Below, piece by piece: positions 3,340-42,817 of a DNA stretch of 64,000 bases. The stretch covers positions 1-64,000 of the forward strand of contig JAAUZD010000018.1 of the NCBI GenBank assembly GCA_014804785.1. Direction: 5' to 3'. Below the pieces are notes generated by a model that saw nothing but the letters and a program-made list of their open reading frames with translations, did no database searches and was not told where the DNA came from. Each line of letters begins with the position of its first letter. Positions within the stretch are counted from its first letter, which is position 1. Made by a program: the position numbers and the translations under genes. This DNA is from Lachnospiraceae bacterium (lineage in GTDB: Bacteria; Bacillota; Clostridia; Lachnospirales; Lachnospiraceae).

Positions 3340-3394
3340 TTAAAATAAACTGCCCGGCAGCGTTTGTTACAATAAGCAGCCAGCAGCGTTTGTT
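3340..3394 (-). repeat. REP-like palindromic repeat, two tandem shortened copies
   Basis: Two overlapping degenerate units (about 3340-3368 and 3366-3394) share the outer elements ACAATAAGC and CAGCGTTTGTT with the full-length copies at 40374-40412 and 42779-42817, but the central hairpin is deleted. The array begins two bases after the stop codon of the germination gene, in the same orientation relative to the gene as at the other loci. Confidence 0.7.
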
Positions 3395-3395
3395 G

Positions 3396-4814
3396 CTATT
3401 CTCTTGACCCCGGCAGCCTATATCTGAACAGTCTTTTTGAAAGCTGCTTCAAATTAAAAGGAAATAAAGGATAGACATAACTCTTTCCCGATACAGTTCT
3501 ATTTGTTACAATTGCCAGAATCAGCAGAATGACTGCTGCAATATATCCCCACACACCGAAAATTGCCGTCAGAATCAAATTGATGATACGCATGAACTTA
3601 ATCGCATAGCTGAGTTCATAACTTGCCTGCGTGTAATTAGCAATTGCCACGAATGCCATATACAGCATAACCTCTGAATTGAACCATCCGCTGTTTACGG
3701 AAAATTCTCCTAAGACGAGCGCCGCCATGACACTTAACGGAGTACTCAGCATATTGGGGGTATTTACCGCCGCAAGCCGTAAGCCGTCAATGGCAAGCTC
3801 TAAAATTAAAAACTGCCAGACCAGCGGAATATTGGTGGGTTCCTTAACCATGATAAATTCAAATCCTGCCGGTATCCACTCCGTTCTCTGCATAAGAAGC
3901 AGAAAAGTCGGTGTCAAAAAATAGGTAATAATTGCTATTAAAAACCTGGATAATCGAAGATAGGTCCCGGTAATCGGCGGGAAATAATAATCATCTGCCT
4001 CTTCCACAATGTCAAAAATAGAGGTAGGCGTAATCATCGCAGAAGGTGAATTGTCCACCAGAATGACAATGTCGCCCTCCAGAATCTGTGCAGATGCAGT
4101 GTCCGGTCTTTCCGTAAATTTAAATTTCGGAAAAGGATTATACCACTTCTTTTTATAAAGACATTCCGCCAGACTTTCCTGATTCATGGTAAGAGCATCC
4201 ACTTGTATCTGATTGATACGTTCTTTAATTTTGTCCAAAAATCCATGATCCACCCTGTCATCCATATAACAAAGTACAATATCCGTCTGTGAGCTGTTTC
4301 CGGCATGAAGCATTTCCATATGCAGCTGCGGGCTTCTGATTCTCCGGCGGATCAGCGCTGTATTAAATACAATCGTTTCAACAAATCCATCTTTAGAACC
4401 GCGCAGAACCTTATCTTTTTCAGGCTCTCCCACACTTCTTGCCGGATAGGTTCTCGAATCGATTAAAAGACAACGGTCATATCCGTCAATAAAAAGCGCA
4501 AACACCCCCGACATGATAAAATAAGTAATCTGATCCCAACTATCCTGCAAATCCACCTCTACATAGGGCAGACTGGTTTTTGACATCTCATGGACATCAG
4601 CCGGCATTTCGTCTTCTTTGATATCCATAAAATACTGCAGCATCTTCTGCATCAGCTCATCTTTGCAAAAACCATCGATAAAATACATACAGGCTTCTCT
4701 TCCGCCGATTTGTATGACCCGGTAAACAATGTCAAAATTTTGGTCTACCGCAAGACAATTATTTAAATACTTCATATTTTCAGAAAGCGACGTACTCATT
4801 TTATTTGTATCCAT
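3396..4814 (-). CDS. GerA-family spore germination protein, SpoVAF-like
   Basis: The 472-residue protein matches the GerAA/SpoVAF family: a long soluble N-terminal region (to about residue 275), the conserved LEGDIVILVDNSPSAMI segment with the following PTSIFDIVEEADDYYFPP type motif, and then about five hydrophobic segments (LIAIITYFLTPTFLLLM onwards). GerA proteins sit in the spore inner membrane and act in nutrient-triggered germination; SpoVAF works with the SpoVA dipicolinate channel. No GerB or GerC partner is adjacent, which favours a SpoVAF-like role over a complete germinant receptor, but this is inference. The ATG at 4812-4814 was chosen because AAGGAG lies six bases upstream; a longer frame begins at 4853. 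It has its own sigma-G-like promoter. Confidence 0.9.
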   Translation of the reverse strand: MDTNKMSTSLSENMKYLNNCLAVDQNFDIVYRVIQIGGREACMYFIDGFCKDELMQKMLQYFMDIKEDEMPADVHEMSKTSLPYVEVDLQDSWDQITYFIMSGVFALFIDGYDRCLLIDSRTYPARSVGEPEKDKVLRGSKDGFVETIVFNTALIRRRIRSPQLHMEMLHAGNSSQTDIVLCYMDDRVDHGFLDKIKERINQIQVDALTMNQESLAECLYKKKWYNPFPKFKFTERPDTASAQILEGDIVILVDNSPSAMITPTSIFDIVEEADDYYFPPITGTYLRLSRFLIAIITYFLTPTFLLLMQRTEWIPAGFEFIMVKEPTNIPLVWQFLILELAIDGLRLAAVNTPNMLSTPLSVMAALVLGEFSVNSGWFNSEVMLYMAFVAIANYTQASYELSYAIKFMRIINLILTAIFGVWGYIAAVILLILAIVTNRTVSGKSYVYPLFPFNLKQLSKRLFRYRLPGSRE

Positions 4815-4850
4815 AAAAAACTCCTTCCGCGCATCAATGCATTCTCTTAG

Positions 4851-4881
4851 CATTATGTGGCAAAAGGAGTATTTTTATACA
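4851..4881 (-). promoter_or_regulatory. Candidate sigma-G promoter of the germination gene
   Basis: On the minus strand TGTATA (4876-4881) is followed after 18 bases by CATAATG (4851-4857). This fits the forespore sigma-G consensus (GHATR, 17-18 bases, CATNNTA) at all positions but the last. It lies 37 bases before the chosen start, as expected for a forespore-made germination protein. Confidence 0.6.
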
Positions 4882-4900
4882 AATTGAAAATATTTTCTAT

Positions 4901-5341
4901 TTACTGTTTTCCGGTACTGCCAAATCCGCCCCGATCAGTTCCTTCCAAGACACTTACCTCCTGAAAATGAATCTTTGGCTGATTTTCAACGATCCGGAAC
5001 TGACAGATTCTGTCGTTGCAGGAAATATGCGTATCCCGCATAGCGTACACCGGCATGAACCACTGATCATTATCACCGCAGTAAGAACCATCAATCACCC
5101 CCTGATGATTCGTCTGGATGATGCCGAAATTTTTGAATGTGGAACTTCTTGGCACAACATGGGCTTCATATCCTGCCGGCAGTTCCATTGCAACCCCCAG
5201 AGGAATCAGGAAAAATTCCCCCTGTTTTAAATCTACATCCTGCGCGGCGCGAAGGTCAATCCAGTCAGACTTTCCGTCTATATAAGTAAGTTTTTCAATC
5301 TTATCAGTAAAATATTTAATCCTGATTGTTTCCATATTCAA
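4901..5341 (-). CDS. dut: dUTP diphosphatase (dUTPase)
   Basis: It hydrolyses dUTP to dUMP and pyrophosphate, which keeps uracil out of DNA and supplies thymidylate synthesis. At 146 residues it shows all five trimeric-dUTPase motifs: DLRA (motif 1), [11 protein letters not shown] (2), [11 protein letters not shown] (3, with the catalytic Asp region), DRICQFRI (4) and RGGFGSTGK (5, the C-terminal P-loop-like arm). It follows nrdG by 14 bases and is the last gene of the nrdD-nrdG-dut operon, tying dUTP removal to dNTP production. The start is probably TTG at 5339-5341, with AAAGGA eight bases upstream; the ATG two codons later lies rather far from that site. Confidence 0.95.
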
Positions 5342-5355
5342 AGAAGGAATCCTTT

Positions 5356-5865
5356 CTATGCGTAATCTCCGCAGTGCAGAACCGGAACGGAAGGATCCGT
5401 CTGCTTAAGCGTATTTTTGACATCAATCACTCTTTGGTTGCTGCTTCCCTTCCAGAGAAGCTTATTATCTTTTTTATCAATCTGAAATTCACCATCCACC
5501 AGCACGTCAATGTACTGCATAATGGAATAGTGCATGATATTTTCCCAACTATCCCCTGTATATAACCATATGGTTTTATCCGGATACTTTTCCTTGATTT
5601 CGGTTATAAAATTCCTAACATCCAGCCGGTTCGCTGCATGAAGCGGATCACCGCCTGAAAAGGTGATGCCTGAAATATAAGATTTATCTAACTGCTCGAA
5701 AATCTCCTGCTTTGCATTGTCGTCAAAAAGAAGTCCTCCAGCAGGATCCCATGTGATAGGATTATGACATTCCTTGCAGCAGTGGGAGCATCCCGAAACC
5801 CACAGCACTACGCGCAGCCCGTCACCGTTTAGCATATCGTCCTTTGTAATATTGTGATATCTCAT
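5356..5865 (-). CDS. nrdG: Anaerobic ribonucleoside-triphosphate reductase activating protein
   Basis: This radical-SAM enzyme of 169 residues installs the glycyl radical on NrdD. The 4Fe-4S cluster motif CX3CX2C is seen in [13 protein letters not shown] near residues 24-36, followed by the SAM-contacting GGDPL at about residue 72. A His-rather-than-aromatic residue follows the last Cys, as in other Gram-positive NrdG. The gene starts five bases after the nrdD stop and is clearly co-transcribed with it. Length and motifs are typical. Confidence 0.96.
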
Positions 5866-5869
5866 TTAC

Positions 5870-8047
5870 TCACATGCTCTTCCTTTCTGCAATTTCTGCC
5901 ATCTTTGCTTCGTTCAGTCTGGTATCTCCATGCACTCTGGAATAAGACAGATATCCGTTCATACGTTCAATCTTAGTCAGATTCTTACTTCCGCATACCG
6001 GACATACATCCATCTCTAATTCCTGGTGACCGCAGTCATCGCAGTAAGCAAGGGATAAGTTGACCCCTTCATAAAAGCCCATATCCATGGCTCTGCGGAT
6101 TAAAGTTTTAATCGCATCAATATTATAATCGATAGGATATTTTACATACTGTATTTTTCCGCCATTTGAAAGCTCCCAGAAACGATATTCCAGATCCTGC
6201 TTCTGGATAGGCGTGATATCTTCGGAAACATGGCAGTGGAAACTGTTGGATACATATTCTCTGTCTGATACGCCTTCAATAATCCCATATTTTGCCCGGA
6301 ATTGTTTTACCTGAAGACCGCAGAGACTTTCAGCCGGTGTTCCATAGATGGCATAAAGGTTTCCATCCTCCTCTTTAAACTCATTTACCTTCTGATTGAT
6401 ATGCTCCAGCACTTCCAGGGCAAATTCTCCATCTTCCACCAATGACTTTCCATTATACAATTCCTGCAACTCATTGAACGCAGTAATACCAAAGCTTGCC
6501 GTAGCTGATTTAAGAATCGGTTTGATTTTATCCGACAATTTTAAGTTTCCGCCTAAAAACCCGCCTTCACAATAAGCAAGCGGATTGGTGGAAGCCCTCA
6601 TTTCACCCAGATAAGCATACGTTCTTATATGAAGCTGACGGATCAGATTTAAATAGTAATCCAGCACTTCATAGAAATCCCTATTCTCCTGCTTCGCCTT
6701 TGCAAGAATCATAGGCAGATGGAGGGATACAGCCCCTATATTAAAGCGTCCCACAAAAACAGGTTTATCATTCTCATCTGCCGGATGCATACCGCCCCTC
6801 TCGTACCAGGGTGAAAGGAATGCACGACATCCCATGGGGGAAATCACCTTTCCATACTGTTTATACATACTTGCAATGTATCCCTTTCCTGTTAAAGAAA
6901 GCCAATCAGGGTACATCGTCTTTGCTGAACATTTCACACCGGCTTCAAACACCTTCTCAAGTTCTTTGCCGGGACCATGAAGATTTTCATCATACAGGAA
7001 TACAATTTTAGGGAAAAGCACTGGTTTTTTACAATCCTTTTTCCCCTGTCCTCTTCTTCTTACATTTAAAAGAGAGATGGTTGCCAGCTGTGCAAACTTT
7101 CCGGTACCGATTCCGGCTGTCACCGTAATAAAAGGATAGTCGCCGCGACTGGACGCAACTGTGTTAAATTTATATTCCCACCCTTGGAATCCCTGCTCAA
7201 ATTCACGCTTCACATCAGCATATGCCTCCGCACGTGCGGTTTCTTCATCAATACCAAGGTTTGCATATTTTTTAAGACTTCTCTGATAAGTTTTTTCTGC
7301 GTAAGGCTCTAAAATCTTATCCACTTCCGGAACTGTAAATCCGCCGTATTGCTGACTTGCCGCACTTAGAACGATATCGCCTATTACGTCAAAGGCTACA
7401 TCCAGTGTTTTAGGCTCATTATACCAGATGTTCCCCATCTCAAAACCGCCGGTCAGTACATTTGCCACATCAAAAAGACAGCAGTTCATGGTATCCCGCC
7501 TTGCCGACATATCATGCACATAAATATAACCGTCCCTGCAGGCCTGTATCTCCTCTGTAGTCATAAAAAACTTCTGATATAATTCTTTATTAAACTGATT
7601 AAAAATCAGGCTTCTCTTCGTAGATACAAGAGCGCTGTCCGTATTGGCATTTTCCTTATCTCCAACATACATGATAGACTGGCTTTTCTTGTAGACATCA
7701 TCCATCATGCGGACAAAATCCTGTTTATAATTACGGTAATCGCGATAGCTTTTTGCTACAATAGGCTTTACATCCTCAAGCGCGCTTTCCACAATATTAT
7801 GCATAATTGGAATCGGAATCTGATCCTGTTCCAGCTCATTTACTTTATCCACAACATATTGGCAGATATGTTTCTTTTCTTCATCAGTAAATTTTGTCAA
7901 AGCCCGGTAGGCGCTTTTCCCAACGGCATCAATTACTTTTTGCACATTGAAAGCTTCAAGGCTGCCATCCTTTTTTATTACTTTGACAACTCCTTCCGGC
8001 TTAAATAATGTACCGTATTCTGCAGTATTTTCCTGCATACCACTCAT
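5870..8047 (-). CDS. nrdD: Anaerobic ribonucleoside-triphosphate reductase (class III)
   Basis: It reduces NTPs to dNTPs without oxygen, using a glycyl radical and formate or thioredoxin as reductant. The 725-residue protein begins with an ATP-cone (about residues 18-105; VVKVIKKDGSLEAFNV), the allosteric nucleotide-sensing domain. The 10-stranded barrel follows. Near the C-terminus there is a zinc site of four cysteines (CDDCGHQELEMDVCPVCG) and the glycyl-radical loop SRVHGDTRLNEAKMAE at about residues 699-714. The start has TGGAGGAAATGAC before ATG. Transcription is expected from the promoter at 8141-8169 with NrdR-type operators just downstream. No class I or II reductase is in the window. 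Confidence 0.97.
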   Translation of the reverse strand: MSGMQENTAEYGTLFKPEGVVKVIKKDGSLEAFNVQKVIDAVGKSAYRALTKFTDEEKKHICQYVVDKVNELEQDQIPIPIMHNIVESALEDVKPIVAKSYRDYRNYKQDFVRMMDDVYKKSQSIMYVGDKENANTDSALVSTKRSLIFNQFNKELYQKFFMTTEEIQACRDGYIYVHDMSARRDTMNCCLFDVANVLTGGFEMGNIWYNEPKTLDVAFDVIGDIVLSAASQQYGGFTVPEVDKILEPYAEKTYQRSLKKYANLGIDEETARAEAYADVKREFEQGFQGWEYKFNTVASSRGDYPFITVTAGIGTGKFAQLATISLLNVRRRGQGKKDCKKPVLFPKIVFLYDENLHGPGKELEKVFEAGVKCSAKTMYPDWLSLTGKGYIASMYKQYGKVISPMGCRAFLSPWYERGGMHPADENDKPVFVGRFNIGAVSLHLPMILAKAKQENRDFYEVLDYYLNLIRQLHIRTYAYLGEMRASTNPLAYCEGGFLGGNLKLSDKIKPILKSATASFGITAFNELQELYNGKSLVEDGEFALEVLEHINQKVNEFKEEDGNLYAIYGTPAESLCGLQVKQFRAKYGIIEGVSDREYVSNSFHCHVSEDITPIQKQDLEYRFWELSNGGKIQYVKYPIDYNIDAIKTLIRRAMDMGFYEGVNLSLAYCDDCGHQELEMDVCPVCGSKNLTKIERMNGYLSYSRVHGDTRLNEAKMAEIAERKSM

Positions 8048-8087
8048 GTCATTTCCTCCATTCTATCTCTCATCCGTGATTCAAAAC

Positions 8088-8131
8088 CACAAAATCTAGT
8101 AATTAAAAACCACATCAGTCAAGATATTGTG
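8088..8131 (-). promoter_or_regulatory. Pair of NrdR-like boxes upstream of nrdD
   Basis: Two degenerate copies of the NrdR box lie at 8088-8101 and 8118-8131 (minus strand TACTAGATTTTGTG and CACAATATCTTGAC), matching about 11 and 10 of 14 positions of the CACTATATATTGTG-type consensus. Their centres are 30 bases apart, close to the three-helical-turn spacing known for NrdR pairs. They sit from about 10 bases downstream of the -10 box, where a bound repressor would block initiation. No nrdR gene is in the window. Confidence 0.6.
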
Positions 8132-8140
8132 CTAGTAATT

Positions 8141-8169
8141 AGTATAATGAAAGCGTATGCAGATGTCAA
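8141..8169 (-). promoter_or_regulatory. Sigma-A promoter of nrdD-nrdG-dut
   Basis: On the minus strand TTGACA (8164-8169), a 17-base spacer and TATACT (8141-8146) form a near-consensus sigma-A promoter about 94 bases before the nrdD start. Confidence 0.82.
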
Positions 8170-8219
8170 CTTGATAATCCACATAAAATCTGCCAAAAAA
8201 AACGGGAAAGAATTGTCTA

Positions 8220-9392
8220 TTATTTTTTGATCATACCACAATCTCTTATTGCTTCCACCGCAAGTTCTATTTCCTCCACCGGCAATGTAAGGGCAAAACG
8301 TACATGCCCTTTTCCCAGTTTGCCAAAACTGCTCCCCGGAGTGCAGAGCACACCTGACTTTTGAAGAAGTTCCATCACAAAATCCACATCATCTGAATAC
8401 CCTTCAGGAATTTTTCCCCAGGCAAACATGGTTCCTTGACTATCGGGGACATTCCAGCCAATCCTGCGGAGCCCTCCGCATAGCGCATCCCTTCGCCTCT
8501 GGTATTCCATACATCTTTCCCTGACTCCATCATCCGATCCCTCAAGAGCCGCTATTGCGCCATACTGGACGGGAAGAAAAGTTCCATAGTCAATCTGTGA
8601 GCGCAGCTTTTTGAAATTCTGAACCAGATATTCATTTCCTACCAGAAACCCTGCCCTGGCACCGGTGTAATTATAGCTCTTAGACAAAGAATAAAATTCA
8701 ATACAGTTTTCCTTTGCCCCTTCATACTGCAGAATTGATTTTCCTACATGCCCATCAAAAATAATGTCGGAATAAGCGTTATCATGAAGAATAATAATCT
8801 CATGTGCCTGTGCCCATGGAATCAGCTCTTCATAAAAAGAATCCGGCGCAATCTTACAGATTGGATTAAGGGGATAGGATATAATCATAAACTTTGTCTT
8901 CCGGCAGATTTCCTCATCTATACTGTCAAGATCCGGCAGATAATCATTTTCAGGTCTTAACTCATAAGTTCTCACATCTGCCATTGCCAGCGACGGACCG
9001 ATGGAAAAAATCGGATATCCCGGATCTGGCACTAGTACCACATCCCCCGGATTGCAAAGTGACAAACCGATGTGGGCAATCCCTTCCTGGGAGCCATAAA
9101 CATCTGTGACTTCTTTTTCTGTCAGGATCACATGATAGCGTTCTTTGAAACGTCTGATTACTGCCTGTGTAAGCTCCGGAAGCATCTTCAGTGCATATTT
9201 GTAGTTGGCAGAATTCTTTGCTGCATTTACAACTGCTTCCATAATGTGCGGATCTGTAGGGAAATCGGGTGTTCCAACAGATAAGTTAAATACTTTTTTT
9301 CCTGTTTTTTCTATTTCCTCTTTTTTTTCATTTAATAATTGAAAAACCCCTTCTTCATATTCCTTCATTCTGTCTGCAACTTGTAACTTCAT
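8220..9392 (-). CDS. Class I/II PLP-dependent aminotransferase, LL-diaminopimelate-aminotransferase-like
   Basis: The 390-residue protein belongs to fold-type I aminotransferases. Visible features are the PDPGYP motif, the Asn/Asp-Tyr pair in HDNAYSDI that contacts the PLP ring, and the PLP-binding Lys in SLSKSYN (about residue 230), followed by GARAGFLVG. The closest named relatives are DapL (lysine and peptidoglycan precursor synthesis) and MalY/PatA-like enzymes; the amino-acid substrate cannot be decided from sequence by eye. A longer frame starts at 9407, but GGAGGA lies inside its first codons and just before the ATG at 9390-9392, so that ATG is used. It follows the WYL-regulator gene by 11 bases and is probably in one operon with it and the HAD gene. 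Confidence 0.88.
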   Translation of the reverse strand: MKLQVADRMKEYEEGVFQLLNEKKEEIEKTGKKVFNLSVGTPDFPTDPHIMEAVVNAAKNSANYKYALKMLPELTQAVIRRFKERYHVILTEKEVTDVYGSQEGIAHIGLSLCNPGDVVLVPDPGYPIFSIGPSLAMADVRTYELRPENDYLPDLDSIDEEICRKTKFMIISYPLNPICKIAPDSFYEELIPWAQAHEIIILHDNAYSDIIFDGHVGKSILQYEGAKENCIEFYSLSKSYNYTGARAGFLVGNEYLVQNFKKLRSQIDYGTFLPVQYGAIAALEGSDDGVRERCMEYQRRRDALCGGLRRIGWNVPDSQGTMFAWGKIPEGYSDDVDFVMELLQKSGVLCTPGSSFGKLGKGHVRFALTLPVEEIELAVEAIRDCGMIKK

Positions 9393-9403
9393 TGTTCCTC
9401 CAT

Positions 9404-10411
9404 TCATAAACAGTCCGCCTGCTCATAGTTATTCATAATATTTTTCATAAAATTTACATATCCGTCTTTTACATGGGCAGGTCCTGAAAGAGTCACTTTT
9501 TCTCCAAGACCAGTAAGCCAGCCATAAAATTGCCCGCTGACTGCCGCTTTCACCCTCACACTAACAATTCCTTCTTTAATCCTGCGGATATCGATCTCTT
9601 TTCCAAAACGGTCAAATATAATTCCAATCATGCCCTCTGGCAGCTGTAAGGTCACGGTTTCCGGCTCGCCGCCAAACATTCCAAAGGTTCTATTAGTGTA
9701 CTGAGCAATATCAAATTCCTTAAAATCCTCTCCCCCCTTACGGCTCTCTTTGGATAGCTGTGTGATATGGCTCATTTTATCCACACGAAAGTGCTTGATA
9801 CGTTCTTCTTCATCATCATAGGCAATCAGATAGTAGTTTTCATCCTGCCAGGTAAGCGCCCAGGGGCTGATATGATATTTTTTCCCTTCGTGTCTCGGAG
9901 TCAGTTCCTTGTTGATATTCCATGCAAGATAATTAAAGGTTACAGGCGCATTGTCCTGTATCGCTTTATGTATACGGTCTACGTTGTAATAAATACTTTC
10001 ATTTTCCGTTTTTACTCTGCCTGCCACGAATACCTGTCTTTGCAGCTGTTTCCCTTCATAGGGACCTGCCAGTTTTTCGATTTTGGAAATCAACTCTCTT
10101 GATTTCTTCTGTGTAATGAAACGGGATGCCTGCACTGCATCCACAAGGAGTTTTAATTCCGGCAGTTCAAATTCTCTGCTTGCCAGATAATAACCGCCGC
10201 CCTTTCTCGCCTTTATGTTCACGATATCATAGCCAAAATGAATCAGGCACTCAATGTCATCATAAATGCTTTTTCTTTCAGCCGTAATGTCATAATCAGA
10301 AAGCTGCACTATGATATCCTGCGCGGAAAGACAATGAGACTCGTCTGTCTTTTCGGTGAGGATTTTGAGTATATATAACAGTTTCATTTTCTGGTTGGCA
10401 GATTTTGGCAT
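9404..10411 (-). CDS. WYL-domain transcriptional regulator
   Basis: The protein (335 residues from the chosen start) has an N-terminal winged helix-turn-helix (about residues 8-70; LSAQDIIVQLSDYDI then KSIYDDIECLIHFGYDI) and a central WYL-type ligand-sensing domain (about 130-220, with VTFNYLAW and SPWALTWQDENYYLIAYDD), plus a WCX-like C-terminal part. WYL regulators respond to nucleic-acid-type or small ligands and are often found near DNA-damage or defence genes, although here the neighbours are metabolic. GGAGGA precedes ATG at 10409-10411 by nine bases; the longer frame would need a GTG at 10435. It overlaps the end of the HAD gene by 28 bases, which suggests translational coupling. Confidence 0.88.
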   Translation of the reverse strand: MPKSANQKMKLLYILKILTEKTDESHCLSAQDIIVQLSDYDITAERKSIYDDIECLIHFGYDIVNIKARKGGGYYLASREFELPELKLLVDAVQASRFITQKKSRELISKIEKLAGPYEGKQLQRQVFVAGRVKTENESIYYNVDRIHKAIQDNAPVTFNYLAWNINKELTPRHEGKKYHISPWALTWQDENYYLIAYDDEEERIKHFRVDKMSHITQLSKESRKGGEDFKEFDIAQYTNRTFGMFGGEPETVTLQLPEGMIGIIFDRFGKEIDIRRIKEGIVSVRVKAAVSGQFYGWLTGLGEKVTLSGPAHVKDGYVNFMKNIMNNYEQADCL

Positions 10412-11097
10412 GACAGTATATCCTCCACTTCCCACAAATTCCGTATTTCATAATCGATTTTAAGCCCGGTATTATTTTCTTTTCCTTCAGGATTATACCA
10501 ACAGCACGCAATTCCGGCATTATTTCCTCCCTGCATATCGCTGGATAGCGAATCCCCTACAATTAAGACTTTGTCTTTTTGAAAATATTCTATTTTCTCA
10601 AAGCATTTTTCAAAAAACAAAGGCTTCGGTTTGGGATATCCAATTTCCTCAGAAACAAAAATATCATCAAAAATCTGATCCAATCCGGACAGATGCAGCT
10701 TATTTCTCTGGGTAGAGGATACACCGTTGGTCACAGCATACTGACGTACCTTCCCTTTCAGTTTACTGCAAAGCTGATAAGCATCATCCTTGAAATAAAA
10801 AACAGATCCCAGCGCTTTCTGATAAACCGCGTTGAAATCCTTTGATGCAATATCAGTTATGCCAAGCTGTGAAAAAAGGGTATCAAATCTTCCGGTAACA
10901 AGCTCATCTTTGGTGATTTCCCCAAGTTCATAACGTATCCAATACGCAGTATTGATTTCTCTATATTGGGTCAGAATCATATCATCTATTTTTTTGTCAA
11001 ACTGCTTAAAGCTATAACTCAGTGCATACTCCTGAGACTTTTCAAAATCCAGCAATGTCTGATCCACATCCCATAGGATGATATTAAATCTGCCCAT
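10384..11097 (-). CDS. HAD-superfamily hydrolase, YjjG-like nucleotidase
   Basis: This 237-residue phosphatase has the four HAD motifs: DVDQTLLDF (motif I, nucleophile Asp near residue 9), VTNGVSSTQRNKL (motif II), a Lys in YPKPKPLFFEKCF (III) and VGDSLSSDMQGGNNAGI (IV). The first motif and overall layout match the YjjG family, which dephosphorylates pyrimidine nucleoside monophosphates, including non-canonical ones. The annotated start at 11095-11097 follows AGGAGG by nine bases; a longer frame from 11169 has no such site and would overlap the upstream terminator. It is the first gene of the HAD-WYL-aminotransferase group. Confidence 0.88.
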   Translation of the reverse strand: MGRFNIILWDVDQTLLDFEKSQEYALSYSFKQFDKKIDDMILTQYREINTAYWIRYELGEITKDELVTGRFDTLFSQLGITDIASKDFNAVYQKALGSVFYFKDDAYQLCSKLKGKVRQYAVTNGVSSTQRNKLHLSGLDQIFDDIFVSEEIGYPKPKPLFFEKCFEKIEYFQKDKVLIVGDSLSSDMQGGNNAGIACCWYNPEGKENNTGLKIDYEIRNLWEVEDILSCQNLPTRK

Positions 11098-11156
11098 GAA
11101 AAGAAACCTCCTATTCAATACTAAATGCCAATTCGTTTCACGAATCGGTTTATTCG

Positions 11157-11185
11157 ACAAAAAGCGCAAAGCAGGCTTTGCGCTT
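11157..11185 (-). terminator. Terminator downstream of the small membrane peptide gene
   Basis: AAGCGCAAAGC (11162-11172) pairs with GCTTTGCGCTT (11175-11185) in a tight hairpin, followed on the minus strand by TTTTTGTC. It separates the MutS-like/small-peptide genes from the HAD operon. Confidence 0.82.
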
Positions 11186-11233
11186 CTTTATAAATATGAA
11201 ATTATTTCTATTTTCTACAAACAAACTTTGTCC

Positions 11234-11392
11234 TTAAGCCTTCGCAGGGTTGCTTTCATTTTCAAGCTGTTTATTTTTGCTCTTCCGCATTTTAATTCCA
11301 ATAAAAATAGCAATTCCAGCCACTACCACTATTATAGCCATTACCAGAAGATAAGATAAAAAAGAATTAAAAAATAAAATCAGATTTCCCAT
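11234..11392 (-). CDS. Small single-span membrane protein, unknown function
   Basis: A 52-residue frame from ATG at 11390-11392 to TAA at 11234-11236 encodes a hydrophobic segment (about residues 5-33; LLVMAIIVVVAGIAIFIGI) followed by a basic and polar tail (KMRKSKNKQLENESN). A Shine-Dalgarno-like AGGAAAGGG lies 12 bases before the ATG, a little far. It sits 41 bases after the MutS-like gene and directly before a good terminator, so it is probably the last cistron of that transcript. I do not recognise a family. The hydrophobic profile and the gap otherwise left unexplained are the reasons for calling it. Confidence 0.55.
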   Translation of the reverse strand: MGNLILFFNSFLSYLLVMAIIVVVAGIAIFIGIKMRKSKNKQLENESNPAKA

Positions 11393-11433
11393 ATTTTCAT
11401 AAAACCCTTTCCTGTTTTCATTAAATTATCATA

Positions 11434-13143: not shown

Positions 13144-13150
13144 CGTCTGG

Positions 13151-14857: not shown

Positions 14858-14872
14858 GGTTATTCCCCTTTG

Positions 14873-31573: not shown

Positions 31574-31582
31574 ATGGCTCTC

Positions 31583-33217: not shown

Positions 33218-33261
33218 ACTTATAACGCCCTCCTGTCCTGCCCGCTGCATCACTACGTTTT

Positions 33262-33639: not shown

Positions 33640-33655
33640 TCCCTGCTCCTTGTAA

Positions 33656-33946: not shown

Positions 33947-33987
33947 AAAATCACACCTGCCTTTTGATGCTCCGCATAAGCCGTCTC

Positions 33988-35613: not shown

Positions 35614-35640
35614 CGGCTCTCCTTTCCATCCGCTTTTGCC

Positions 35641-36399
35641 CTACAGGAAATTTTGAATAAAACTTCTGCGATGTATAGGGGTCGGTCCTAACTTTTTAAG
35701 TGCATCGATATGCGCCTTTGCCCCATACCCTTTATTGGAAGCAAATCCATACTCGGGAAAGACAGAATCATACTGCACCATCAACCTGTCTCTGGTTACC
35801 TTTGCAATAATGCTGGCAGCGGCAATGGAAATGCTTTTTGCATCCCCCTTAATAATCGGTACCTGTTTTACTGAAATGCCGGGAATCGTCACCGCATCAT
35901 TTAAAAGAATATCCGGCGACGGGTGAAGCTTTCCCACAGCCTCTCTCATTGCTTCATAGGTTGCCTGCAGGATATTGATTTCGTCAATCCTCTCTGGAGA
36001 TACGAATCCAAGCCCTGTAGATACCGCTTTCTCCATGATTTCTTCATACAACTCTTCTCTATTTTTTTCGGTCAGTTGTTTGGAATCATTAAGATATAAA
36101 ATATCACAATCCTTCGGCAGAATCACTGCCCCGGCAACTACCGGTCCCGCCAGCGGTCCTCTTCCCACTTCATCTATACCGCAGATATAGGAAAAGGAAC
36201 GATATTGGTTCTCATATTCCTTCATTTTTTCTGTCCGTTCCAATTCCTTCTGATAATCCTGTATTCTTTTTTTTGCCCTGCTTAAAAGCGCCTGCACTCC
36301 TACACGCGTATCTGCACTGTATTTGTCTATAAAGGCAGGCAGCTCATTGATACTGGCTGCCTGCAGACTCTTCTTGATCTCATTTATCTTTTGCTCCAT
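35641..36399 (-). CDS. rnhB: Ribonuclease HII
   Basis: It nicks DNA at embedded ribonucleotides and degrades RNA-DNA hybrids. The 252-residue protein has a roughly 70-residue N-terminal extension typical of Firmicutes RNase HII and then the catalytic core beginning CGIDEVGRGPLAGPVVAGAV (Asp-Glu pair), with further acidic residues in LNDSKQL and ILLNDAVTI, and AAASIIAKVTRDR. It is followed by the FliK-like gene after 27 bases. Confidence 0.96.
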   Translation of the reverse strand: MEQKINEIKKSLQAASINELPAFIDKYSADTRVGVQALLSRAKKRIQDYQKELERTEKMKEYENQYRSFSYICGIDEVGRGPLAGPVVAGAVILPKDCDILYLNDSKQLTEKNREELYEEIMEKAVSTGLGFVSPERIDEINILQATYEAMREAVGKLHPSPDILLNDAVTIPGISVKQVPIIKGDAKSISIAAASIIAKVTRDRLMVQYDSVFPEYGFASNKGYGAKAHIDALKKLGPTPIHRRSFIQNFL

Positions 36400-36433
36400 A
36401 TTTACTGCCTTTTCCCTGACTGTTATCTGTTCC

Positions 36434-36973
36434 TTATTGATGCTTGATCATTCCCATTTTATCAAAGGGCCATATCCGCACCCATGCTTTCCCGATCAAA
36501 TCATCCCGTTGGACATTGCCCACTACCGGATCACGGCTGTCAGAACTGTTGTTCCGGTTATCTCCCATGACAAAATATTCATCTTCTCCCAGGACAATAG
36601 GCTCATATGCCCTTCCCGGATCCGTAATCACTTCTTTTCCGTATGGCTCATTCAAGATTTCATCATCTATATAAATATTTCCATCATCATCGATATAGAT
36701 GGTTTCCCCAGGAAGACCGATGATCCGCTTGATATAATAAGGTCTGTCCGCATATTGAAAAGGAAATACGACGATATCAAACCGCTGTGGATCCTTAAAC
36801 CGGTAAGAAATCTTATCTATGATCAAATTATCTCCGTCACTCAGCATAGGCTCCATAGAACCGCCAGAGACCTTCGTGCGCTGCCCCACATAGGTAACGA
36901 TCAGAAAGGTGACAACAAGCACCCCAAGCAGATATAAACTTGTGCCTAATATCTCTTTTACTTTTTTCTTCAC
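36434..36973 (-). CDS. lepB: Signal peptidase I
   Basis: It cleaves signal peptides from secreted proteins at the outer face of the membrane. The 179-residue protein has one N-terminal membrane helix, the catalytic Ser in GGSMEPML (about residue 36), the catalytic Lys in YIKRIIGLPGE and the GDNRNNSSDSRD box. The start is taken as GTG at 36971-36973, in a four-base GTGA overlap with the rbgA stop and seven bases after GGAGG. A second signal peptidase gene lies on the other side of rbgA. Confidence 0.94.
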   Translation of the reverse strand: MKKKVKEILGTSLYLLGVLVVTFLIVTYVGQRTKVSGGSMEPMLSDGDNLIIDKISYRFKDPQRFDIVVFPFQYADRPYYIKRIIGLPGETIYIDDDGNIYIDDEILNEPYGKEVITDPGRAYEPIVLGEDEYFVMGDNRNNSSDSRDPVVGNVQRDDLIGKAWVRIWPFDKMGMIKHQ

Positions 36974-37821
36974 TGCCACTCCTCCGGATGCTCTAATGTA
37001 ATCCTTCCGATTTTGCCGCTTCTGAAATCATCTAAAATCATTGCAGAACCTCTTGCAATATCAGGCATTTCGCCCTTTTGGAAGCAACGTCTTCGGATAC
37101 AGATTTCCTCAAGATTCTTATATGCATCCTCATTTGTATTTATTTGATAACGTTCCTGCAACAAAGCAGGATATTGCTGCTGCAGATAACGGATCACCGC
37201 TGTAGCCAATTCATCCACATGCAGGATTTCATCATTAATCGATCCAATCATGGCAAGCCGTTCGCCCACCTTTTGATCTTCAAATCGCGGCCACAAAATG
37301 CCGGGGGTGTCTAGAAGTTCCAAACTCTTATTAAGGCGTATCCACTGTTTTCCTTTGGTAACACCCGGTTTATTTCCCGTCTTGGCACATGCTCTTCCTG
37401 CAAAAGAATTGATAAAGGTGGATTTTCCTACATTGGGAATGCCCACCACCATGGCACGAACCGGTCTTCCAATGATTCCCCGTTTCCTGTCACGCTCAAT
37501 TTTCTCCCTGCAGGCCTCCTGCACCAGCGGCTGGATACTCTTAATCCCTGCCCCCGTCCTAGAGTTGATTTCCTGCACAAAAAAACCATTTTCTTTAAAG
37601 TATTCGGTCCAGAGATTATTATATCTTGCATCAGCTAAATCAGCCTTATTTAACAGAATCAGCCTTGATTTATTCCTGCCAAGTTCATCTATATCAGGAT
37701 TACGGCTGCTCATGGGAACCCTTGCATCCACCAATTCTATCATTAAATCTATCAGCTTGATATCTTCCTGCATCATTCGCCTGGCTTTTGTCATATGCCC
37801 CGGATACCATTGATAATTCAT
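36970..37821 (-). CDS. rbgA: Ribosome biogenesis GTPase RbgA (YlqF)
   Basis: RbgA assists late 50S assembly. The 283-residue GTPase is circularly permuted: the G4 motif (LNKADLAD) precedes G1 (GIPNVGKSTFINSF) and G3 (DTPG), with GNKPGVTKGKQW between as the switch I region. The N-terminal YQWYPGHMTKARRMM is diagnostic, and the C-terminal ANTAR-like domain contacts 23S rRNA. AAGGAG lies seven bases before the ATG. Confidence 0.97.
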   Translation of the reverse strand: MNYQWYPGHMTKARRMMQEDIKLIDLMIELVDARVPMSSRNPDIDELGRNKSRLILLNKADLADARYNNLWTEYFKENGFFVQEINSRTGAGIKSIQPLVQEACREKIERDRKRGIIGRPVRAMVVGIPNVGKSTFINSFAGRACAKTGNKPGVTKGKQWIRLNKSLELLDTPGILWPRFEDQKVGERLAMIGSINDEILHVDELATAVIRYLQQQYPALLQERYQINTNEDAYKNLEEICIRRRCFQKGEMPDIARGSAMILDDFRSGKIGRITLEHPEEWQ

Positions 37822-37837
37822 GTATGTACTCCTTATC

Positions 37838-38422
37838 CTATTTTACCAATCCCATACTGTCTTCACTGCTGCTCATCTTAAACCATACTTTTCCAGTAAT
37901 TGTTTCCTTGCTTATCGGTCCTATATTGCCGGAACGGCTGTCCTCACTGAAATTACGATTGTCTCCCAGTACGAAATACTCATCACTTCCCAGCAGAATT
38001 TCCGTATCCGCTATGCCTGCGTCCGCTATTTTATCATATGATTCGTCTTCCACAAGAAGTTCACCGTTTATATACACATAACCGCCTATAATCTGTATCC
38101 GCTCCCCTGGCAGTCCTATGACCCTTTTTACATAGTAATGGGCATTTGGATTTCCGTTGGGTAAAAATGCAACCACATCTCCCCTATGGGGCGATAGGAC
38201 TTTAAAAACAAATCTGTTGATCAAAACTTCCTGTCCATTATACAAAGCGGGTTCCATGGATACTCCAATCATACTGATTTTCATTCCTACCGAGAACACG
38301 ATAACAAAAGCTAACAAAATGGCAGCAAAACAATAAAAGCATGTTCCAAATATCTCTCTTATCATTTCCTTGCTGATCCACTTTTTCTTTTCGTAAAAAC
38401 TTAATCCTTTGTGTCTTGCCAT
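37838..38422 (-). CDS. lepB: Signal peptidase I, second copy
   Basis: The 194-residue paralogue has a longer basic N-terminus, one membrane helix (about 23-47; CFYCFAAILLAFVIVFSVGM), the catalytic Ser in GVSMEPALYNGQEV, the Lys in YVKRVIGLPGERI and GDNRNFSEDSRSG. It starts the rnhB-side gene group after the rplS terminator and precedes rbgA by 16 bases. Having two signal peptidases with rbgA between them suggests a local duplication followed by divergence; the proteins differ clearly in the N-terminal region. Confidence 0.94.
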   Translation of the reverse strand: MARHKGLSFYEKKKWISKEMIREIFGTCFYCFAAILLAFVIVFSVGMKISMIGVSMEPALYNGQEVLINRFVFKVLSPHRGDVVAFLPNGNPNAHYYVKRVIGLPGERIQIIGGYVYINGELLVEDESYDKIADAGIADTEILLGSDEYFVLGDNRNFSEDSRSGNIGPISKETITGKVWFKMSSSEDSMGLVK

Positions 38423-38506
38423 GTGATTGTTCCTTATTTTATCTGCAAAAGCATTTTCTTAAATAAGCCGCACCGGATTTATTTTATCATATTTTGTTGC
38501 ATAAGA

Positions 38507-38536
38507 AAAGGACAATTGCGTAACCAATTGTCCTTT
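38507..38536 (-). terminator. Terminator of rplS
   Basis: AAAGGACAATTG (38507-38518) pairs perfectly with CAATTGTCCTTT (38525-38536) across a six-base loop. On the minus strand it is followed by TCTTATG after CTTTT, fifteen bases beyond the rplS stop. Confidence 0.88.
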
Positions 38537-38550
38537 GGTTCTTATGTTTG

Positions 38551-38895
38551 TTATTTAATAGCTTCTTTTACCTTTGCCTTTTTACCTACGCGGTCTCTTA
38601 AGTAATTCAGTTTTGCTCTTCTTACTTTACCTCTGCGCACAACCTCAATCTTTTCTACATTAGGTGAATATACAGGCCATGTCTTTTCAACGCCTACGCC
38701 GTTGGATGTTTTTCTTACCGTAAAAGTCTCTCTGGCGCCGGTTCCCTGTCTTTTTAATACAACGCCTTCAAAAACCTGGATTCTTTCACGATTTCCTTCC
38801 TTGATCTTGCCATATACCTTAATGGTATCGCCTACATTAAATTCTGCTACTTCTTTGAACTGTTCAGCTTCAATGCTTTTAATAATCTCGTTCAT
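38551..38895 (-). CDS. rplS: 50S ribosomal protein L19
   Basis: L19 lies at the 30S-50S interface. The 114-residue sequence is typical: [41 protein letters not shown] and the basic tail [25 protein letters not shown] split across its last 30 residues. It follows trmD with a 121-base gap that holds its own promoter and a leader. Order rpsP-khpA-rimM-trmD-rplS is conserved in Firmicutes. Confidence 0.98.
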
Positions 38896-39016
38896 ATCAA
38901 ACCTCCATTTGTTTGGTAACTCATCAGATGTTCTTAATACACAGGTAACAGAGGACCATCACAATTTCGCAACATTAATAATTTACCATAGTACGGTTAA
39001 AATTGCAAGCAATATT
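38896..39016 (-). promoter_or_regulatory. rplS promoter and leader, possible L19 autoregulatory leader
   Basis: On the minus strand TTGCAA (39003-39008), 17 bases and TAAATT (38980-38985) make a moderate sigma-A promoter just after the trmD stop. The remaining leader of roughly 75 bases holds a repeated GTTACC element and a short CATC/GATG hairpin. Firmicutes rplS genes often carry an L19 leader here; I cannot confirm a match to that RNA family by eye. Confidence 0.35.
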
Positions 39017-39784
39017 TCATTTTTTCATCTTTTTGCGCTGTCTGGCTTCCTTCTTTGCCTTCTTTATAAAATATTCCTGGTTTTCTTCCGCCCATTTTTC
39101 ATATAAATCAGGACGTTTTTCTCTTGTCTTTTCAATCGACTGCTCCAGTCTCCACTCATCCACTTTTTTATGATCGCCGGAAAGCAAAACCTCAGGTACC
39201 CTTTTATTATGCCATATTTCCGGTCTTGAGTACTGGGGATATTCAAGGAGGTAATTGCTGAAACTTTCTGTCTCGCCTGAATCTTTATTGCTAAGAACGC
39301 CGGGAACCATCCGGGATATTGCGTCAATCATCACCATTGCCGGCAATTCCCCGCCGGTAAGTACATAATCTCCGATAGAAATATAATCTGTAACGATTTC
39401 CTCCAGCACTCTCTCATCAATCCCTTCATAATGACCACAGAGAAAAATCAGATTTTCTTCCTTTGCAAATTCCTTCGCCATAGCCTGATGAAAGGTCCTG
39501 CCCTTCGGGGTGACATAGATGACCTTTGCCCCTGCGCTTCCTTCAGATTGAATTTTGCAAAGCACAGCTTTCCATGCATCGAAAACCGGCTGAGCCTGCA
39601 TCAACATGCCTGCCCCTCCCCCATAGGGATAATCATCTACCTTTTTATGTTTATTTATCGTATAATCCCTGATATTAACGGCCTCAAGGGAAATAATTCC
39701 TTTATCCATCGCCCTTCCGATAATACTGGTACCAAGCCCCTGCATGATCATTTCAGGGAACAGTGTAAGCACATGAAAATTCAC
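39017..39784 (-). CDS. trmD: tRNA (guanine-N1)-methyltransferase (m1G37)
   Basis: TrmD methylates G37 of several tRNAs and prevents +1 frameshifting. The 255-residue SPOUT enzyme has PYGGGAGMLMQAQPVFDAW, GHYEGIDERV and the deep-knot SAM site SIGDYVLTGGELPAMVMIDA. It starts with GTG at 39782-39784, preceded by GGAAAGAATGAGATT. It follows rimM after 27 bases in the expected order. Confidence 0.97.
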   Translation of the reverse strand: MNFHVLTLFPEMIMQGLGTSIIGRAMDKGIISLEAVNIRDYTINKHKKVDDYPYGGGAGMLMQAQPVFDAWKAVLCKIQSEGSAGAKVIYVTPKGRTFHQAMAKEFAKEENLIFLCGHYEGIDERVLEEIVTDYISIGDYVLTGGELPAMVMIDAISRMVPGVLSNKDSGETESFSNYLLEYPQYSRPEIWHNKRVPEVLLSGDHKKVDEWRLEQSIEKTREKRPDLYEKWAEENQEYFIKKAKKEARQRKKMKK

Positions 39785-39811
39785 AATCTCATTCTTTCCT
39801 ATTCTTTAAAA

Positions 39812-40321
39812 TCAATCTAAAAGCCCGTCAAGCACATGTACGGTCATCCTGCCCTCTTCCAGATTCACATTCAGGATACAGTCTTTAATCGCCGGAAGCA
39901 GAAGTTCTCTCCCATCCTCCAGCCTAATGACATATACGTCATTGGCGCCGGTTTGGATGACATCCGTAAGTCTCCCCTTAAGGGCATCATCCTCAGAAAT
40001 AACCTCGATACCAATTAAATCCGCAATAAAATATTCGTCTTTTTTCAATTTCACTGCATTTTCCCGGGTAACAAAAAGACTTTTTCCCTTATATTTTTCA
40101 ATATCATTGATATTGTCATAATCTTTGAATTTTAATATTACAAACTGCTTAAAAAACTTTACGGACTCTATCTCAAGACAAAGCCTCTCCTTCCCTGTAT
40201 CAAGCAGTACTTCTTTCAGTTTCTTGAATCGTTTTGCATCATCTGTTGTGGGAAATACCTTCACTTCTCCTTTAATTCCATGGGTTGAAGAAATAATCCC
40301 CACCTGAAATAAATTTTCCAT
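39812..40321 (-). CDS. rimM: 16S rRNA processing protein RimM
   Basis: RimM binds ribosomal protein S19 and helps mature the 30S head. The 169-residue protein has the N-terminal RimM domain ([19 protein letters not shown]) and a C-terminal PRC-barrel ([12 protein letters not shown] to [13 protein letters not shown]). GAGGTATCAGA precedes the ATG. It follows khpA across a 91-base gap that carries a REP-like repeat and a hairpin. Confidence 0.96.
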
Positions 40322-40344
40322 TCTGATACCTCATAAAACTCGCA

Positions 40345-40367
40345 AACCGCACGCAAAGCGTGCGGTT
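40345..40367 (-). terminator. Intra-operon hairpin between khpA and rimM
   Basis: AACCGCACGC (40345-40354) and GCGTGCGGTT (40358-40367) form a perfect 10-bp, GC-rich stem with a three-base loop. The U-tract after it on the minus strand is poor (TGCGAGTTTT), so it may attenuate or protect the upstream RNA rather than terminate fully. Confidence 0.45.
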
Positions 40368-40373
40368 ATGTGA

Positions 40374-40412
40374 TTACAATAAGCTGACCCGCAAAGCGTG
40401 GCAGCGTTTATT
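40374..40412 (-). repeat. REP-like palindromic repeat, full copy
   Basis: The 39-base unit begins TTACAATAAGCTG, has an imperfect 10-bp stem closed by AAA (CCCGC AAA GCGTG core), and ends GGCAGCGTTTATT. It matches the copy at 42779-42817 at 35 of 39 positions. It abuts the khpA stop codon. Confidence 0.8.
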
Positions 40413-40640
40413 TTAGACGATTTCCACGTCTACCCTTTGATTTTCTTTGGATGATGCTGCTTTTACTACAGAACGGATCGCTTTTGCAATCCTGCCCTGT
40501 TTTCCGATTACTTTTCCCATATCAGATGCAGCGACATGAAGTTCAATGGTAATATGCTTACCTTCTTCCTTCTGGGTTACAATAACCTCATCCGGATGAT
40601 CAACAAGTGCTTTTGCAATTACTTCAACTAATTCCTTCAT
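40413..40640 (-). CDS. khpA: KH-domain RNA-binding protein KhpA (YlqC)
   Basis: The 75-residue protein is a single type II KH domain with the RNA-gripping GKVIGKQGRIAKAIR (GxxG as GKQG, about residues 52-55). KhpA pairs with KhpB/Jag in Gram-positives and affects division, cell length and small-RNA action. It lies between rpsP and rimM as in most Firmicutes. GGAGGTGGACT precedes the ATG. Confidence 0.96.
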   Translation of the reverse strand: MKELVEVIAKALVDHPDEVIVTQKEEGKHITIELHVAASDMGKVIGKQGRIAKAIRSVVKAASSKENQRVDVEIV

Positions 40641-40672
40641 AGTCCACCTCCAAGAGAGTTGCCGATTCCGTA

Positions 40673-40918
40673 TTATTTTTCAATACCTGCCTGCTTGAAA
40701 ATCTTGCTGACAACTTCTGTAGGCTGTGCACCGTTTGCAAGCCACTTTTTAGCCAGTTCTTCATTTACATGAAAAGTGCTGGGATCTGTGTTTGGATCGT
40801 AAGTTCCGATTTCCTCGATACATCTTCCATCTCTGGGGGATCTGGAATCCGCAACGACGATTCTATAGAAAGGAGCTTTCTTCTGACCCATTCTTCTTAA
40901 TCTGATTTTTACTGCCAT
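40673..40918 (-). CDS. rpsP: 30S ribosomal protein S16
   Basis: S16 is an early-assembly protein of the 30S body. The 81-residue sequence starts [20 protein letters not shown] and has [21 protein letters not shown]. The ATG at 40916-40918 is used with GAGGTG upstream; a frame starting three codons earlier would need a GTG inside the ribosome-binding region. Confidence 0.98.
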
Positions 40919-40999
40919 GTTTTTCACCTCACATTAAATATTATGATTTATTTTGAAAAGAAACAACTTACGAAAATCGGCCGTTTCCATTTTCAACTT

Positions 41000-42355
41000 T
41001 TAAAAAGGGAACCGCATCTTACCAAAACCGCCCCTGCGTTTTCCGCCCATGAGACCGGGCATCTGTTTCATCATCTTCTGGGACTGCTCAAACTGCTTTA
41101 CAAAACGGTTCACCACTGCCATATCCACCCCGGCGCCTCTTGCAATCCTGCTCTTTCTGCTCAGATTCAGAAGCTTAGGATTTTTTCTTTCCTCCGGCGT
41201 CATACTGAGGATGATTGCTTCTGTTCTTGCAAGTTGTTTTTCATCTATCATAGATTCTATATCGCCGAGCTGCTTTCCCATGCCGGGCATCATACTTAAA
41301 ATACTTGTAAGCCCGCCCATATTGCGCATCTGTTTCATGCTCTCTAAGTAATCTTCAAAATCAAACTTGCCCTTTTTCATGCGGGCAGCCATTTCTTTTT
41401 CTTTCTCTTCATCTATTGAGATGCTTTCCTGTGCTTTTTCAATTAAAGACAGCACATCCCCCATCCCTAAGATACGGCTTGCCATTCTTTCAGGATAAAA
41501 CTGCTCTAAGTCTGAAAGTTTTTCACCCATGCCCACATATAGAATCGGTTTGCCGGTAACCGCTTTGACGGAAAGAGCCGCACCGCCTCTGGTATCGCCA
41601 TCCATCTTGGAAAGAACCACTCCGCTTATTTCTATCTGGTCATCAAACTCTTTTGCCACCGTGACTGCATCCTGACCGGTCATGGCATCCACCACCAGCA
41701 GCGTCTGATGAACATCCACCTGCTCCTTAATCGTCTTCAGCTCCGTCATCATATCCTCGTCAATATGAAGACGTCCGGCGGTATCCAGTATCACCACGTT
41801 GTGACCATTCTTTCTGGCATGCTCAATTGCTGCCTTTGCAATATCCACAGGACTTTGATTTTCTCCCATGGAAAAGACATCCACCTGTTGTTTCTCTCCG
41901 TTAATCTGCAGTTGCTTGATCGCCGCCGGCCTGTAGACATCACAGGCTACAAGAAGGGGCTTTTTCCCTTTTAATTTCAACTTGCCCGCAATCTTTGCCG
42001 TTGTGGTCGTCTTACCTGCCCCCTGCAGACCGCACATCATAATCGTGGTAATCGATTTACCTGGCTGCATCTGAATCTCAGTGGTTTCAGAACCCATCAG
42101 GGCAACCATTTCCTCATTTACGATCTTAATGACCATCTGCCCTGGATTTAATCCATTCATCACATCAGATCCAATGGCTCTTTCTTCCACTGCCTTTATA
42201 AACTGCTTCACTACTTTGAAGTTGACATCCGCTTCTAAAAGCGCCAGTTTTACTTCCTTAAGGGCAGTCTTCACATCCTCCTCAGTAAGTCTGCCCTTAC
42301 TGCGGAGATTTTTGAATACATTTTGAAGTTTATCTGTTAAACTTTCAAATGCCAT
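41000..42355 (-). CDS. ffh: Signal recognition particle protein Ffh
   Basis: Ffh binds signal sequences of nascent membrane and secreted proteins together with SRP RNA and hands ribosomes to FtsY (encoded at 47100-48038). The 451-residue protein has the N domain, a GTPase G domain (GLQGAGKTTTTAKIAGKL, DVYRPAAIKQL, DTAGRLHIDED, TKMDGDTRGG) and a Met-rich M domain at about 325-451. It follows ylxM by three bases, the conserved regulator pair. The tail is rich in Gly, Arg and Lys. Confidence 0.98.
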   Translation of the reverse strand: MAFESLTDKLQNVFKNLRSKGRLTEEDVKTALKEVKLALLEADVNFKVVKQFIKAVEERAIGSDVMNGLNPGQMVIKIVNEEMVALMGSETTEIQMQPGKSITTIMMCGLQGAGKTTTTAKIAGKLKLKGKKPLLVACDVYRPAAIKQLQINGEKQQVDVFSMGENQSPVDIAKAAIEHARKNGHNVVILDTAGRLHIDEDMMTELKTIKEQVDVHQTLLVVDAMTGQDAVTVAKEFDDQIEISGVVLSKMDGDTRGGAALSVKAVTGKPILYVGMGEKLSDLEQFYPERMASRILGMGDVLSLIEKAQESISIDEEKEKEMAARMKKGKFDFEDYLESMKQMRNMGGLTSILSMMPGMGKQLGDIESMIDEKQLARTEAIILSMTPEERKNPKLLNLSRKSRIARGAGVDMAVVNRFVKQFEQSQKMMKQMPGLMGGKRRGGFGKMRFPF

Positions 42356-42358
42356 GAA

Positions 42359-42700
42359 TCACAGCTCCTCTAATATCTGACGGGATAAAAAACTGACTTT
42401 CTGTATCAGTTCTTCCCTTGTGGTTTTTGTGTCAGCGCTTAATTCCTGAAGCTGACTTATATTGTCCTTTATTTTCATAAAACGCTGCACAAGATGTAAC
42501 TTATCTTCATAATCCTGCAAAGTGCGGTTACAGCGCCTTACCAGATCATGCACTCCCTGGCGGGAAATTCCGTTTTCCTTCGCAATTTCTGCCAGTGACA
42601 GATCATTGTAAACCACATCTTCATATATCTTTTTCTGATGCTCTGTAAGCAGTTCCCCATAAAAATCATATAACAGTCCCTGCTCAACAATCTTCTCCAT
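42359..42700 (-). CDS. ylxM: YlxM family helix-turn-helix protein (UPF0122)
   Basis: The 113-residue protein has a sigma-70 region-4-like helix-turn-helix ([20 protein letters not shown] then [20 protein letters not shown]). YlxM lies upstream of ffh in nearly all Firmicutes and modulates SRP assembly in some species. The ATG at 42698-42700 has AGGTGATTGCAT before it; a TTG two codons earlier is less likely. Confidence 0.95.
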
Positions 42701-42732
42701 ATGCAATCACCTAAAGTAGAATACTACAAAGG

Positions 42733-42770
42733 AATAAGGATGTCAAGCATTTTTGCTTGACATCCTTATT
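42733..42770 (-). terminator. Terminator between the AraC-type regulator and ylxM
   Basis: A perfect 17-bp stem (42733-42749 with 42754-42770) closes a four-T loop. It lies about 50 bases beyond the AraC-type gene stop. The U-tract on the minus strand is short, while the plus side reads TCTTTTTC, so it may act mainly as a strong barrier. Confidence 0.8.
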
Positions 42771-42778
42771 TCTTTTTC

Positions 42779-42817
42779 TTACAATAAGCTGGCTCGCGAA
42801 GCGTGGCAGCGTTTGTT
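42779..42817 (-). repeat. REP-like palindromic repeat, full copy
   Basis: The unit begins TTACAATAAGCTGG, has the stem around CTCGC GAA GCGTG and ends GGCAGCGTTTGTT. It ends three bases before the stop codon complement of the AraC-type gene (42821), the same placement as the other loci. Confidence 0.8.

Follow-up and report, generated by a model that had tools for sequence, protein, structure and literature searches.

The imperfect palindromes that lie next to three genes of a Lachnospiraceae bacterium are members of one real repeat family, for which chance is excluded, and the reading of this family as a mobile hairpin with a preference for terminators is well supported. The analysis shows the following: a 37-nt unit is present in one genome and absent from a near relative, units follow a preferred target and keep one orientation to the hairpin that precedes it, they form in-phase arrays, and the two arms of their stem covary.

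The window, by which we mean the whole stretch of DNA analysed, comprises 64,000 nt (positions 1-64,000, forward strand) of contig JAAUZD010000018.1 from Lachnospiraceae bacterium GCA_014804785.1. Throughout, W denotes the orientation in which a unit reads TTACAATAAGC...CAGCGTTTGTT. Units, preceding hairpins and adjoining genes are listed by position.

3296-3332, hairpin, followed by TCTTTTG, ahead of the double unit at 3340
3340-3394, + strand, double unit, head-to-tail and fused (27 and 28 nt), hairpin centre deleted in both; the second is 3367-3394, 29 bits
3396-4853, - strand, GerA-type spore germination ORF, 3' end 1 base from the double unit
40345-40367, perfect 10-bp hairpin ahead of the unit at 40374
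40374-40412, + strand, full unit in W orientation, between the khpA stop and the hairpin at 40345-40367
40413-40640, - strand, khpA, stop directly abutting the unit (0 bases)
42736-42767, terminator hairpin upstream of the unit at 42779, 14-bp stem, scored terminator-like on both strands
42768-42780, + strand, T-rich tract and junction TT, presumed insertion target of the unit at 42779
42779-42817, + strand, full unit in W orientation, consensus copy, 3 bases off the stop of the AraC-type ORF
42821-43699, - strand, AraC-type regulator ORF, stop 3 bases from the unit

A preliminary description of this DNA had reported two full copies identical at 35 of 39 positions, a third site made of two fused, centre-deleted copies, outer 11-mers common to all copies and, in the full copies, mismatches at the same two positions and AAA or GAA loops; all of this is confirmed, the mismatches falling at 14/28 and 16/26. 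At the 42779 site, read in the W sense, the T-run of a terminator-like hairpin comes before the unit.

The same description proposed a search of the whole genome, which finds more than the copies in the window: a covariance model derived from 18 copies matches 46 places in the 3.97-Mb genome at E<=1 and 27 at E<=1e-3. The 11-mer TTACAATAAGC by itself would not be convincing proof of a family; with two mismatches allowed it was found 37 times against 22 expected, and 1 of 100 shuffles was equally high. Within the genus, the model detects units (E<=1e-3) in 29 of 37 genomes, with 1 to at least 145 per genome where present. These counts are lower bounds, as no genome had more than 150 candidates scored and tandem neighbours were in part missed (for example, the second units at C20:65216 and C22:58944 of the window's genome). 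Carriers among the matches listed for the exact pattern include Parablautia intestinalis, P. muri and the Lachnospiraceae strains 1XD21-87, 28-4 and 1xD8-48. A family-wide draw of 299 genomes, searched with stricter filters, gave matches in eight genomes from 7 of 298 genera; two of the eight belong to the unit's own genus. The repeat is concentrated in that genus, with relatives scattered across the family. Plasmid and phage collections gave no unit matches, an exact-pattern search of IMG/VR found no unit, the window has no Rfam 15 match that exceeds the gathering score, and the titles and abstracts searched (preprints being outside their scope) contained no paper describing this repeat.

The unit consists of ACAATAAG, an imperfect hairpin and CGTTTGTT, and its final TTTGTT is itself a target-like sequence. 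For structural analysis, 90 diverse units were picked from 245 distinct ones, a choice that makes the set rich in degenerate copies; 88.3% of stem cells are paired. Double changes fill 54 cells against 21.6 after shuffling, and none of the 500 shuffles was as high; counted by pair, nine show a double change against 6.7, and 30 of 500 shuffles were as high. Of all 245 distinct units, 180 close the stem with A-T, 10 with T-A, five each with G-C and C-G and 12 with G-T; the non-pairing combinations A-C, T-T and A-A account for 14, eight and three. Mismatch 16/26 is pyrimidine-pyrimidine in 222 of the 245 and mismatch 14/28 purine-purine in 160; mismatched hairpins are what HUH transposases of the REP and IS200 type recognise. 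Departures from pairing in the stem are about equally often G.T (137) and A.C (115), so that either strand could be the one that folds.

Units sit directly 3' of T-rich sequence with the consensus TTTRTT. Public contigs (L090-L169) supplied 93 arrays, 69 of which hold a single copy. T occupies each of positions -5 to -2 ahead of the unit in 68-85% of them. Directly upstream, 66% of the arrays have a stem of 8 bp or more; the corresponding figures are 23% for the right side, 21.5% for sequence further out and 18.5% for shuffled sequence. Lowering the minimum stem to 6 bp reduces the contrast (74% upstream versus 29% right, 32% further out and 43% shuffled), and roughly one array in three lacks a clear upstream hairpin. 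Stems of 8 bp or more also mark 23 of 37 strict-pattern unit sites, as against 205 of 990 (20.7%) empty sites, T-rich and intergenic, drawn from loci that carry units (Fisher p=1e-7).

Units are mostly intergenic and near gene 3' ends. Relative to W, the genes flanking an array are sense on both sides in 42 cases, antisense on both in 21, convergent in 18 and divergent in two (90 arrays, minus seven inside an ORF call; ORF calls were mechanical). Because orientation to neighbouring genes varies, hairpin and T-tract are the constant reference: to these the unit keeps one orientation, while its relation to the gene is variable. Where the gene is antisense, as with all three in the window, the unit stands between stop codon and terminator; for sense genes it is positioned past the terminator. 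An orientation fixed relative to the gene, as first described, is therefore true of the three window sites (all W on the + strand, with the adjoining genes on the - strand) and not of the 90 public-contig arrays, where both orientations are common. Placement exactly behind stop codons fares similarly. It is seen in the window (1, 0 and 3 bases) and is strong in this genome, where 10 of 15 distinct arrays facing an antisense gene have a near-zero stop distance (best 30 of 46 matches; counted by hand, with L061 corrected by hand); it does not extend to a general rule, since near-zero distances in other genomes occur at 3 of 18 unit sites and 50 of 545 empty T-rich sites, which is no clear enrichment. 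Of 90 arrays, 60 have a positive GC skew in the W sense (p=0.002), a bias that tracks gene orientation (56 of 90); convergent regions divide 10 to 9, with no bias apparent. Elements of the IS608 type prefer the lagging strand.

Turnover, suggested earlier by the deleted copies, is supported by presence and absence of units between two near relatives, genomes G006 and G027, which are 96.9% alike over 2050 bases of a single locus. Of 28 loci queried (13 and 15), the search found no ortholog for nine (L278, L270, L279, L284, L290, L351, L355, L357 and L358), the partner of L290 being recognised by eye as L349. The alignment stopped short of the unit at L354 and L361, and the partner of L362 carries another insert. 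Eleven further sites, paired directly or by eye, bring the comparable sites to 27; by reading of the alignments, the unit is absent from the partner at ten of these, some of these absences resting on messy alignments (L359, L286 and L265). At L365/L395 and L368/L393 the length difference is exactly 37 nt, located after TTTATT: the filled site reads GGAATTTATT / ACAATAAG...GCGTTTGTT / TCGATAATC and the empty site GGAATTTATT / CCCATAATC, with no target duplication beyond TT. L073 and L310 differ by two units versus none. Gain and loss are inseparable here because only two genomes were compared, and some differences could be loss between TTTGTT repeats. At the AraC locus, 29 loci were fetched from relatives, 20 with both flanks; the profile finds the unit in none of the 20, while the hairpin core GTCAAG..CTTGAC is kept in 19. 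One of these loci, L259, has a loose pattern match upstream of the hairpin, without a profile score.

Arrays have an in-phase period of 37 (36 in some variants), start behind a T-tract and reach 22 units. All 42 pairs of neighbours within 300 bases are direct and none is inverted, which does not support BIME-like pairing. In the longest array (L315:3250-4200, genome G002), AAAGCG and AAAACG variants are interspersed and in part alternate, a pattern that suggests growth by more than one unit per step. A sister family, CATAAGGATG...CATCCGTTGTT, has the stem GGATG/CATCC and, as read by eye, the same mismatch positions and a similar loop. Ten of its 22 pattern matches, some of the 22 being chance matches, lie directly behind an A-type end; this position fits the rule that the TTTGTT end of a unit serves as target. 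In other genera (L336, L342 and L338) a relative keeps the plan but with compensating bases: it starts with CCAA, ends with TTTGGT and lies behind GT. A CCAA...TTTGGT type is also found behind CT or AT in the unit's own genus (L083-L085).

We consider it probable that the units are very short, non-autonomous mobile elements, 37-nt DNA hairpins that insert 3' of a T-rich target through a putative trans-acting enzyme. A new copy would enter directly 3' of TTTRTT, preferably in the tail of an intrinsic terminator and in fixed orientation to it; beside antisense genes this would spare the protein and change the 3' UTR only. Because the right end of the unit, TTTGTT, resembles the target, a later copy could land behind an earlier one, and direct head-to-tail arrays would result. 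We infer two further components, a guide-pairing step and the enzyme. The hairpin foot carries ACAA and AATAA, which may act as guides by pairing with TTGT and TTATT at the cleavage sites, as happens in IS200/IS605 and REP elements. Closing pairs and target agreement offer this idea mixed support: among 39 units whose first base is other than A, the penultimate base is the Watson-Crick partner in 15, G.T in nine and T-T in ten, and the target base matches the unit end in 10 of 27 first units with a non-T penultimate base. The enzyme would most likely be a single-strand transposase of HUH/Y1-like type; it may have been lost in the meantime or have diverged too far for the models to recognise.

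A resident source for such an enzyme could be the IS200/IS605 TnpA proteins, mobilising the units in trans as MITE-like derivatives. In common with IS200/IS605 ends and MITEs, the unit has a single sub-terminal hairpin, inserts 3' of a short target and leaves no target duplication, and has at its foot bases that could pair with the cleavage sequence; in IS608-type elements guide sequences pair with the cleavage sites. Y1 transposase matches number 34, in 21 of the 37 genomes, and correlate weakly with unit number (rank correlation 0.34, p=0.04; 0.21 once genome size is corrected for). Against this, 5 of the 17 genomes with at least ten units have no Y1 match (G004, G020, G029, G030 and G034, two of the five being at most 88% complete), and G034 carries 65 units at 94% completeness. 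Moreover, the compared IS200 copies of the genus have other hairpins and other end sequences in all five pairs (borders are BLAST limits, and the right end of L217/L219 was not reached), and in the unit, unlike in IS200/IS605, a single hairpin serves both ends of 37 nt. We regard this derivation as unlikely.

That the units are REP/BIME elements proper, spread by a genome-encoded RAYT (TnpA-REP), was the reading first proposed. Its descriptive part is supported: like the REPs, BIMEs and REPINs that accompany TnpA-REP in E. coli and Pseudomonas, the unit is a short dispersed imperfect palindrome with conserved mismatches, of REP-like size and high copy number, mostly intergenic, near 3' ends and subject to turnover, with a possible guide-like sequence at its foot. 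Spread by a RAYT, inverted pairing and a gene-fixed orientation are not supported. The RAYT model NF047646 is over its cut-off in 0 of 37 genus genomes, with weaker matches in 13, and is over it in 1 of 14 genomes of a control set. All ten Y1 matches tested as proteins (of 34) are IS200 equivalogs with a RAYT score below cut-off or none. A TnpA-REP gene flanked by units was looked for as earlier suggested: 30 of the 34 Y1 loci yielded one weak unit match, and the only Y1 match of the window's genome (L031, C52) has an internal stop and no unit near it. Reading of the translations places a tnpB-like ORF beside that match and a MerR-type regulator near it. As to the hairpin, PMC6006769 describes a GT[AG]G tetranucleotide at the REP foot and classes (2.6 and 3) without it; PMC3733652 describes REPs as inverted pairs (REPIN/BIME), with head-to-tail dimers existing too. 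In the unit consensus the foot has no GT[AG]G on either strand, GTGG occurring inside the stem only, and, again unlike REPs, units prefer terminator T-tracts and form in-phase direct arrays. The RAYT reading is largely refuted for these genomes, and as an account of the family it is very improbable.

Alternatively, the unit could be an immobile functional element of mRNA 3' ends, such as a terminator module, a processing site or a protein-binding site, fixed by selection. Its position near terminators, the covariation of its stem and its closeness to stops in this genome would all be expected of such an element. Orthologous gene ends lack it, however, as at the AraC locus; it comes and goes between two near relatives; it lies past the terminator of sense genes; and it ranges from 0 to 145 matches per genome in one genus. 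We judge this explanation highly improbable. Insertion by a group IIC intron reverse transcriptase is very unlikely: such introns target terminators and T-tracts, and the unit shares this type of target, hairpin plus T-tract, but it is 37 nt long without ribozyme or RT, the group II RT model has no match in the unit-rich genomes G031 (145 units), G033 (127), G005 (80) and G034 (65), of which G033 and G005 are 88-89% complete, and its matches do not follow unit number (rank correlation 0.10, p=0.54).

The enzyme expected for REP-like repeats was thus not found in the genomes searched, and no autonomous partner gene is apparent among 553 ORFs within 400 bases of units (231 loci, many overlapping), the larger ORF clusters resembling, by eye, transporters and regulators. 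CRISPR repeats and VNTR arrays are likewise direct repeats of about 37 bases; unlike these, the unit has no spacers, occurs mostly as single dispersed copies, and forms arrays that start at a target tract. In sum of likeness, the unit behaves as a REP does and its insertion resembles that of an IS200/IS605-type element, yet it fails tested defining features of both. It may represent a new class of terminator-homing micro-element, a single hairpin with its own target at one end that builds head-to-tail arrays behind terminators and is moved by an enzyme that is neither RAYT, IS200 TnpA nor group II RT. Several sister families of one clade, whose stems differ while their mismatch positions agree and their closing pairs compensate in part, would then depend on one such enzyme; we advance this tentatively, as it goes further than we would call probable.

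The best-known REP-type repeats are those of proteobacteria that have a RAYT. A similar but differently built Lachnospiraceae family, with a sharp target rule and no detected RAYT, is a natural system in which single hairpins stand at exactly known sites, and the spread of REP-like repeats without a visible transposase becomes directly testable. The family would give these gut bacteria, relatives of Parablautia, fast-changing 3' ends and markers in the form of tandem arrays.

Two observations concern individual sites in the window. At 42757-42785 (+ strand) the unit's TTACAAT forms a -10-like hexamer 17 bases after the TTGACA of the terminator stem, an 11/12 promoter match; units might carry a weak W-strand promoter to some sites. 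The genes khpA and rimM usually share one operon, and here a strong hairpin and a unit (40345-40412) stand between them.
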